From NCBI RefSeq assembly GCF_018882205.1, contig NZ_JACVOU010000001.1, forward strand, positions 372,001-436,000: DNA of 64,000 bases, in the 5' to 3' direction. The notes below the pieces were generated by a model. It saw only the letters and a list, made by a program, of their open reading frames with translations. It did no database searches and was not told where the DNA came from. Made by a program: the position numbers and the translations under genes. Shown here piece by piece: positions 41,340-44,234 of this stretch. The stretch comes from Polynucleobacter bastaniensis. GTDB taxonomy: Bacteria > Pseudomonadota > Gammaproteobacteria > Burkholderiales > Burkholderiaceae. The number at the start of each line of letters is the position of its first letter. Position 1 is the first letter of the stretch.

Positions 41340-42680
41340 ATGGAATTTGAAATGTTAGATCAAGAAACAGCGGGTAAAACCATTATTAAAGTGGTTGGAG
41401 TTGGTGGTGCAGGTGGTAATGCAGTTCAGCACATGATTCGTCGCGGTGTTAACGGCGTAGAGTTTATTTGCATGAACACCGATGCTGGCGCTTTACAGCG
41501 TTCTGAGGCATCTGTGAATTTGCAACTAGGCTCTAGCGGACTCGGTGCTGGCGCAAAACCTGAAATCGGAGCAGCTTCTGCTGAAGAAGCGCGTGCACGT
41601 ATTGCAGATACATTACAAGGTGCACACATGGTGTTTATTACTGCCGGTATGGGTGGTGGCACGGGCACAGGTGCAGCGCCAATCGTTGCTCAGGTTGCTA
41701 AAGAGATGGGTATTTTGACTGTTGGTGTGATCAGTAAGCCGTTTGATTTTGAGGGCGTTAAGCGTCTCAAGGTTGCAGAGAATGGCGCTATCGAACTCGA
41801 GGCATATGTTGATTCACTGATTGTAGTTCTCAATGAAAAGCTCTTTGAAGTGATGGGTGAAGATGCAGAGTTTGATAAGGCATTTGCATGTGCTGATGAT
41901 GTATTGCATAACGCTGTTTCAGGTATTGCAGAAATCATTAACGTACAAGGTTTGATCAACGTCGACTTTGAGGATGTGAAAACAGTGATGGGCGAACAAG
42001 GCAAAGCAATGATGGGAACTGCAACAGTTTCTGGCATGGACCGTGCACGCTTAGCTGCTGAGGCTGCAGTTGCTTCGCCACTACTCGAGGGCGTCGATTT
42101 ATCTGGCGCACGTGGTGTATTGGTCAATATCACCGCTAGCCGTTCATTGAAGTTGTCTGAAACTCGTGAAGTGATGGCAGCGATTCGTGGCTATGCTGCA
42201 GATGATGCTACTGTGATCTTTGGTACTGTCTATGATGAGAGCTTAGGTGATGCATTGCGCGTTACTGTTGTTGCTACGGGTTTGAATAATCCACAAGCTC
42301 GTCAACATCATCAACCGGAAGTAGTTTGGAGACAAGCTACTGGTACGCATGATGCGATGCCAACGATGGCTGACTTAAACAGCTTTGCTCCAGCAAGTGC
42401 TTCAGCGGCAATGAGCAAAGTAAATCTTGACTCAGCTTTGAGCACGAGCGCAGGTTTGGCAATGACAGGTATAGGAAGCGCTCCTGCGATTGCTACTCAA
42501 CCAGCAACTAGCGGTGTTGATTACAGTCAATATGATTTGCCACGTGTATTCCGTAGTTCACGGGAAGCTACACCAGCCCCTACATTGGGTGCTGATAGCT
42601 CGCCACAGGCTAAAAATATGCTGGATAAAGGGGCTGATTACTACGAAATCCCAGCTTTTTTAAGAAAGCAAGCAGACTAA
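41340..42680 (+). CDS. ftsZ: cell division protein FtsZ
   Basis: Tubulin-like GTPase that forms the Z ring. Features in order: [16 protein letters not shown], the GTP tubulin signature [12 protein letters not shown] (about 104-115), the [12 protein letters not shown]7-loop region, a variable linker rich in Ala, Ser and Thr (about 320-425) and the C-terminal peptide [13 protein letters not shown] that binds FtsA and ZipA-type partners. A strong GGAGGG ribosome site lies just upstream. At 446 residues it is slightly long because of the linker. It ends the cluster. Confidence 0.98.
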
Positions 42681-42710
42681 ACCACTGCTTAATACAATAG
42701 GTCTTGCAGA

Positions 42711-42761
42711 ATGCCAGCGCGGCGCCCCTCCGGACGACGAATCCCGCGCTAGCGTTGGCAT
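42711..42761 (+). ncRNA. GC-rich structured element between ftsZ and the peroxiredoxin gene
   Basis: ATGCCA (42711-42716) pairs perfectly with TGGCAT (42756-42761). The pairing can extend as ATGCCAGCG with CGTTGGCAT (one G-U), or ATGCCA can stack on GCGCGG paired with CCGCGC across a bulge. The 51 bases are far richer in G+C than their surroundings. No T run follows, so it is not a normal terminator. It sits in the spacer 30 bases upstream of the peroxiredoxin ATG. A leader RNA, processing site or protein site is possible; I cannot identify a known class. Confidence 0.4.
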
Positions 42762-42791
42762 ACTCATGACAACTATTTAATTGGAGACTTT

Positions 42792-43292
42792 ATGATCGCA
42801 GTCGGACAAAAATTACCAAACGCTACTCTTTATGAGTTTTTAGATGAAGCCAGCGAGGGTTGCGCTATTGGACCAAACGCCTTTGAAGTTGAAAAACTCA
42901 CTGCTGGTAAAAAGATAGTGATCTTTGCATTACCTGGTGCATTCACGCCAACTTGTTCAGCAAAGCACGTTCCTAGCTATGTTGAGCACTTTGATGCAAT
43001 TAAAGCAAAAGGCGTTGATGAAATTTGGTGCATCTCAGTAAATGACCCATTTGTGATGGGTGCCTGGGGCCGAGATCAAAAGGTTGGCAAAAAGATTCGC
43101 ATGTTAGGTGATGGCAGTGCTGAATTTACTAAGAAACTTGGCCTAGAGCTAGATTTGATTGCTCGTGGTTTGGGTATTCGTTCAGATCGCTACGCCATGA
43201 TTGTTGAAGATGGTGTCGTAACAACCTTGGATCGCGAAGCACCTGGCAAGTTTGAAGTAAGCGATGCCGCTTCAATCTTGAAAAAGCTTTAA
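42792..43292 (+). CDS. peroxiredoxin, Prx5 family
   Basis: A 166-residue thiol peroxidase. The peroxidatic cysteine C55 sits in LPGAFTPTCSAKHVPSY, the Prx5 pattern. WCISVNDPFVMGAWG and LGIRSDRYAMIVEDGVV are further Prx5-type segments. It would reduce hydroperoxides in the cytoplasm using glutathione, glutaredoxin or thioredoxin; the donor is not evident. A TTGGAGACTTT ribosome site precedes the ATG. It lies between ftsZ and lpxC and may have its own leader (see the hairpin just upstream). Confidence 0.93.
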   Translation: MIAVGQKLPNATLYEFLDEASEGCAIGPNAFEVEKLTAGKKIVIFALPGAFTPTCSAKHVPSYVEHFDAIKAKGVDEIWCISVNDPFVMGAWGRDQKVGKKIRMLGDGSAEFTKKLGLELDLIARGLGIRSDRYAMIVEDGVVTTLDREAPGKFEVSDAASILKKL

Positions 43293-43322
43293 TAAATCAT
43301 TCCTGAATTTAGATAAACCATA

Positions 43323-44234
43323 ATGAAGCAACGCACAATCGCTACTCCGATTAAAACCGTGGGTATTGGTTTGCACTCTGGGCGTAAGGTGACTTTGTCT
43401 ATTAAGCCTGCGCCGGTAAATTCAGGGATTGCATTTGTACGTGTAGATACCCCAGAGCAGTCGCTTGTACCAGCCACTGCTCTGGCGGTTTGCGATACCC
43501 GTCTAGCCTCAGTGATACAAAAAGATGGCGTGCGCGTTTCCACCGTGGAACATTTACTTTCAGCTTGTGCAGGCCTAGGACTTGATAATTTGTTGATTGA
43601 ACTTGATGGTGAAGAAGTGCCCATCATGGATGGTAGTGCAGCCTCATTTTTATTCCTAATGGAATCAGCCGGTATAGCTGAACAAGAAGCCTCCAGACAG
43701 TTTGTAGTGATTAAAAAATCTGTAGAAGTGAAGGAGGGGGACAAGCTTGCGCGCCTAGAGCCTTTCTTTGGTTTTAAGTTGGATTTCACAATCGACTTTA
43801 AACATCCGGCAGTAGATAAAACTGGTCAGCGCTTTGTGGTGGATTTTGCTGAGCATGCTTATCGCAGCGAGATTGGTCGTGCTCGCACTTTTGGTTTTGC
43901 TCACGAGGTTGAGGCCTTGCGAGAGATGGGTTTAGCGCGAGGCGGAAGCTTGGATAACGCGATTGTGCTCGATGAGCATCGCATTCTGAATAACGAAGAG
44001 TTACGTTATGAAGATGAGTTCGTACGTCATAAAATCTTGGATGCTATTGGTGACCTGTATCTAGTTGGGCATCCGATCGTGGGTTCCTATGTTGCTGAAA
44101 AATCAGGACATGCCTTGAATAACGCACTCTTGCGCAAGCTTTTGGAAGATCCTAGCTCTTATGAAATTAGCAGTTTTCCAGAAAATAAGGCTCCCGCAGC
44201 CTATTCCAAAGAGAGTCAACCCCTCTTTTTCTAG
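43323..44234 (+). CDS. lpxC: UDP-3-O-acyl-N-acetylglucosamine deacetylase
   Basis: LpxC performs the committed step of lipid A synthesis. The zinc site is visible: H77 in [15 protein letters not shown] and H236 with D240 in [15 protein letters not shown]. The catalytic glutamate is in [14 protein letters not shown]. The start [19 protein letters not shown] is the family start and 303 residues is standard. Its position after ftsZ is common in proteobacteria. The stop is two bases from the convergent dciA stop. Confidence 0.97.

Follow-up and report, generated by a model that had tools for sequence, protein, structure and literature searches.

A small RNA hairpin lies on the forward strand just upstream of a peroxiredoxin gene (prx) across the genus Polynucleobacter, where it is conserved and its stem covaries. 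The element is a real and very well conserved leader RNA of putative function, and the hairpin probably regulates prx. It is located in the window (the whole stretch of 64,000 nucleotides of P. bastaniensis DNA that was analysed), where a sequence-only reading had pointed out a 51-base island of high G+C with ATGCCA/TGGCAT ends in the spacer between ftsZ and prx. The element appears to be the published candidate PBC-28-3, to which it was matched by description and not by letters, and the leader RNA has most likely already been published as a candidate. With the present analysis, the motif of that description grows from the 21 examples in print to 147 genomes. The analysis also defines its loop core, fixes its strand, places it probably close to the promoter, and makes it less likely that the loop simply masks the prx ribosome site. 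Such a leader could explain the tuning of an antioxidant enzyme in abundant, small-genome freshwater bacteria. The features of the locus are as follows, in window coordinates:

41340-42680, + strand: ftsZ, the upstream gene (PF00091 and PF12327)
42693-42698, + strand: TACAAT, putative -10 hexamer of the prx promoter (recurrent in the genus at a near-constant distance)
42711-42761, + strand: hairpin element, predicted 5' arm 42711-42725 and 3' arm 42746-42761 (fold, covariation, and G-U versus A-C strand counts)
42727-42740, + strand: near-invariant loop core, CCTCCGGACGACGA (core pattern in 109 of 110 genus loci; CCTCC in all A1 rows)
42783-42786, + strand: GGAG, Shine-Dalgarno sequence of prx (position; GGAG in 109 of 109 loci)
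42792-43292, + strand: prx, encoding a 166-aa peroxiredoxin of the Redoxin/AhpC-TSA family; presumed to be the gene under regulation (PF08534 and PF00578)

Gene neighbourhood and predicted fold

The open reading frames of the region are ordered murC, ddl, ftsQ, ftsA, ftsZ, prx, lpxC; the names of ftsZ, prx and lpxC were checked against Pfam, and those of murC, ddl, ftsQ and ftsA were assigned by reading of the frames. The Pfam scores of Prx (PF08534, 130.5 bits; PF00578, 40.5 bits) are both above the cut-offs, with no other Pfam matches, and its scores with the NCBIfam AhpC model are far under the cut-off. Its top named matches (99% identical) belong to a Burkholderiaceae bin and several Polynucleobacter strains. 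The P. bastaniensis genome contains 11 AhpC-TSA family matches, this prx among them, and none of the leaders of the 10 other genes (folded by first ATG) is marked by R1, the covariance model built here.

The hairpin element is contained in the 111-base spacer between the two Pfam-confirmed genes, and its stem ends about 30 nt from the prx ATG. The sequence-only reading was correct as to its composition: 36 of the 51 bases are G or C, and the G+C fraction reaches 0.706 in the 51-base segment 42700-42750, compared with 0.35 to 0.59 in the remaining segments from 42500 to 43000. The predicted fold of 42711-42761 is a single hairpin of -25.3 kcal/mol (z -2.83), which 3 of 200 shuffles equalled. 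The fold score alone is modest; chance is excluded because of the conservation and covariation across the genus. As had also been stated, the element is not a normal terminator, since the sequence 3' of the stem lacks the T run of an intrinsic terminator, and a terminator scan of 42550-43400 listed none at the hairpin. The further claim that it is not coding agrees with the 109 genus loci, in which we found no conserved reading frame: 18 have no covering frame and the frames of the remainder differ, so that an upstream open reading frame or attenuator is not supported. The hairpin does open with an ATG, and 42711-42752 forms a 13-codon frame (MPARRPSGRRIPR) in many close relatives. This frame has no visible ribosome site, and it is not conserved in the other clades.

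Covariation, strand and loop core

Covariation was assessed on two alignments: A1, with 28 diverse representatives, which was not fitted to the structure, and A2, with 77 distinct sequences aligned to R1 and thus structure-fitted. RNAalifold on A1 returned 12 pairs, 10 of them with compensatory changes, and no second conserved helix, i.e., a simple stem only. In A1, 94.3% of the cells are paired, a result that no more than 1 of 500 shuffles equalled. In A2, 97.3% of the cells pair, two-sided changes occur in 10 of the 12 pairs, and the two-sided cells number 110 versus 32 in shuffles; none of 500 shuffles equalled the alignment in any of the five measures used, and the paired fraction in slid controls is 20-46%. 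The covariance analysis that the sequence-only reading had proposed as a check therefore bears out a structured RNA. The A2 cells comprise 791 Watson-Crick, 107 G-U, 4 A-C and 21 other combinations, and the large excess of G-U over A-C indicates that the RNA is the + strand, in the same orientation as prx.

The loop is highly conserved and contains pyrimidine stretches. Its first block, CCTCC, does not vary across the 28 A1 rows, and its second is GACGACGA in most sequences, with single variants that include GACGATGA, GACGACTA and GACGACGC. Both blocks, CCUCC and GACGACGA in the RNA, stay nearly constant while the letters of the stem diverge among clades. The spacing between them, according to the pattern used, is 1, 3, 4 or 8 bases depending on the clade, and 1 in the P. 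bastaniensis element.

Distribution within Polynucleobacter

R1 matches 147 of the 151 Polynucleobacter genomes, the weakest best match having an E value of 5.8e-7, and Prx was detected in 149 of them, marginally (E 9.7e-4) in G056. The core CTCC...ACGA occurs upstream of prx in 109 of the 110 genus loci with upstream regions read; in the 110th (L153) the available sequence does not reach beyond prx, so this locus is not among the 109, and another such locus (L066) is part of no count. Comparison of the coordinates of Prx and R1 matches placed 36 further R1 matches directly upstream of prx. The last two (G100 and G128) are on contigs that differ from those of the listed prx match, and in G100 the prx contig stops at the gene. 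The four genomes missed by R1 are G061 and G123, which have no Prx match, G056, with the marginal Prx, and G028, where the contig ends 3 bases upstream of prx. Thus, among the 151 genomes we saw none in which the region preceding an intact prx is available but the element is missing.

Among the matches listed, there is one convincing R1 copy per genome. Some genomes show a second R1 match at E up to 1, and the three of these listed lie on the opposite strand at the same place. The P. bastaniensis genome contains no convincing second copy by R1 (next E values, 0.68 and 2.56); the match at E 0.68 (L224, G000:C4:175204-175269) is probably due to chance. A dispersed repeat was rejected, as blastn against the same genome found the element once, together with two 14-base chance matches. 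In one genome (locus L175) the spacer that separates the element from prx is longer and contains an extra inverted repeat whose middle is rich in T.

Relation to published motifs

The Rfam search that had likewise been proposed gave no family in 41500-43500 at E up to 1, and at the gathering score neither the window nor the 10 relative loci searched gave one (release 15); our alignment could seed such a family. The element is distinct from Polynucleobacter-1 (RF01718), listed by Weinberg et al. 2010 (PMC2864571), which is likewise a candidate structured RNA and is named after the same genus. That motif has 141 positions and was rejected as a candidate, with 0 matches at E up to 10, whether at the prx-leader locus or elsewhere in the P. 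bastaniensis genome.

In the portions of Brewer et al. 2021 (RNA Biol, PMC8632094) available to us, PBC-28-3 is described from 21 examples upstream of AhpC-like peroxiredoxin genes, in the same orientation as the gene, with a long covarying stem and a highly conserved loop with pyrimidine stretches. All of these properties are found in the Polynucleobacter element, which is now known from 147 genomes. The label 28, judging from the other motif labels in those portions, denotes Beta proteobacterium CB, there called similar to Polynucleobacter. The two descriptions appear to differ in one respect: the start codon is described as immediately next to PBC-28-3, whereas 30 nt separate the stem from the ATG in P. 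bastaniensis and the gap is wider in some clades. Protein binding was the interpretation preferred by those authors. Within the literature searched, the name PBC-28-3 occurs in no paper besides PMC8632094. According to the available text of PMC11109978, which defines a class termed 'PBC', members typically precede genes of nucleic-acid-binding proteins; the prx element shares with this class a structured element in the 5' leader of a single gene, but Prx has just the Redoxin and AhpC-TSA Pfam matches. The words Polynucleobacter and AhpC are absent from the same text. The portions of PMC8632094, PMC2864571, PMC11109978 and PMC7522526 available to us contain no mapping of the prx leader.

Promoter and place in the transcript

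The sequence-only reading had noted a TACAAT hexamer at 42693-42698 and proposed that a transcript initiated from it near the 5' edge of the island would make the island the leader of the prx mRNA. The hexamer is present and recurs upstream of the core in 82 of the 109 genus loci, compared with a shuffled rate of 0.029 (from 60 of those loci). Of 90 distinct regions, 76 have their best -10-like hexamer at a distance of 29-34 nt upstream of CTCC. The hexamer-to-CTCC distance has a standard deviation of 3.9 (a value that the 32-base search range itself limits, although hexamers of shuffled regions scatter across the full range), versus 6.8 for the distance from the ftsZ stop to the core (108 loci) and 18.5 for that from the core to the prx start, which spans 61-142 nt in the genus. 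A hexamer at such a near-constant distance suggests that a prx mRNA probably carries the hairpin at its 5' end, with transcription starting near 42705 by our inference, and supports the proposed leader. A scan of 42550-43400 found neither a two-hexamer sigma-70 promoter nor a -35 consensus, which counts against a strong promoter. As ftsZ is upstream in every inspected locus, synteny cannot show whether the element belongs to prx as a leader or to the 3' side of ftsZ.

Proposed mechanism and alternative explanations

We consider it about evenly balanced whether the element is a cis-acting hairpin of the prx 5' leader, expressed from a promoter just downstream of ftsZ, with a near-invariant loop that is recognised in trans. 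Under this mechanism, the promoter would yield a transcript whose stem starts a few bases from the 5' end and presents the loop CCUCC...GACGACGA; a factor acting in trans, probably an RNA-binding protein with a preference for loops of pyrimidines, would bind the loop and, depending on stress, alter how the prx mRNA is translated or degraded. Both the promoter and the action of the hairpin on prx are putative. Recognition of the loop by a trans factor would be the simplest remaining reading, and it agrees with the suggestion of protein binding in PMC8632094.

Since the loop CCUCC equals the anti-Shine-Dalgarno core, its pairing with the prx Shine-Dalgarno sequence was tested. A CUCC-GGAG pseudoknot that blocks ribosomes would constitute a self-contained translational switch, perhaps controlled by ligand or temperature. 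CUCC is complementary to GGAG in 109 of 109 loci, the best predicted duplex between the loop and downstream sequence spans GGAG in 48 of 98 distinct loci, and in most clades only a short distance separates the hairpin from the start codon downstream. However, CUCC and GGAG are both invariant in the 109 loci and thus show no covariation, the flanking letters add no pairing, and the duplex energies are no better than those of shuffled sequence (mean z -0.09). Moreover, GGAG is equally constant without such a partner at ftsZ (38 of the 38 sites found; the pattern missed 4 of 42 loci), and it occurs at the prx of other genera in 26 of 35 loci (L107, with no upstream sequence, being left out). A Shine-Dalgarno-sequestering pseudoknot is thus unsupported, and we regard this switch as unlikely. 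The same CCUCC could instead target the Shine-Dalgarno sequences of other mRNAs from a trans-acting small RNA, and small RNAs with CCUCC-type loops are known. This is the least probable of the explanations, as the 3' side lacks a terminator and the single convincing copy is next to prx.

The nearly constant loop, its covarying stem and the position ahead of a single gene would also suit a small-molecule riboswitch aptamer with hairpin architecture. We consider this improbable, given the simple stem, the lack of an expression platform such as a terminator in the scan of 42550-43400, and the preference of the authors of PMC8632094, in its available portions, for protein binding. It is likewise doubtful that the element is a generic 5'-terminal stability hairpin, or a 3'-end or processing hairpin of ftsZ, with no switch: its location at the probable 5' end, its long stem and its constant position within the ftsZ-prx spacer in the loci read would suit either, but a plain stability stem needs no loop held constant while the stem letters change, and no T run follows the stem.

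Returning to the trans-recognised leader hairpin, a more specific and speculative version is that a stress-responsive RNA-binding protein (e.g., one induced by cold or oxidants) has CCUCC...GACGACGA as its one dedicated target site, which would form a genus-specific post-transcriptional switch of prx. If true, this would be a one-peroxiredoxin switch in freshwater bacterioplankton, sited inside the cell-division cluster. The available portion of PMC7522526 reports that the peroxiredoxin protein Pnuc_0173 is raised at 4 °C, with a tabulated log2 change of 1.87, and gives +1.34 for it in the oxidative-stress section. We infer from gene order that Pnuc_0173 is the prx orthologue: Pnuc_0169 is ddl, and in the window ddl is followed by ftsQ, ftsA, ftsZ and prx. 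The FtsZ protein is also up in the cold (+1.04) in the same source, so the rise of the peroxiredoxin need not stem from the leader.

Occurrence outside the genus

The sequence-only reading had proposed a comparison across Burkholderiales. The convincing matches are confined to Polynucleobacter: no convincing R1 match was found outside the genus in the family, order and phylum scans or at the prx loci of other genera (best E, 0.02 to 0.8). In the family scan, 42 of 299 genomes match, of which 40 are Polynucleobacter and two are at E about 0.07; G141 shows a second weak match at another place (E 0.06). All 7 matching genomes of the 399 in the order scan are Polynucleobacter, as are 5 of the 7 among the 398 of the phylum scan, the other two being at E 0.02 and 0.10. 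The best E value at 36 non-Polynucleobacter prx loci, some without sequence upstream of prx, is 0.77. Within the reach of these scans the element is thus restricted to the genus; the large scans may have overlooked distant homologues, because they filter more strictly and score few candidates per genome. A viral or plasmid origin was rejected, as the exact 19-base core is absent from viral_contigs and plasmids gave no match.

A prx that is 70% identical to the query and adjoins ftsZ occurs in a metagenome bin titled Bordetella parapertussis (L075), a title that may be a mislabel. In four Limnobacter loci (L093, L101, L105 and L108) the spacer before prx is a different one that looks conserved; at about 100 nt from the gene it may form a TTTGCAGT...ACTGCAAA stem, perhaps an independent leader element.
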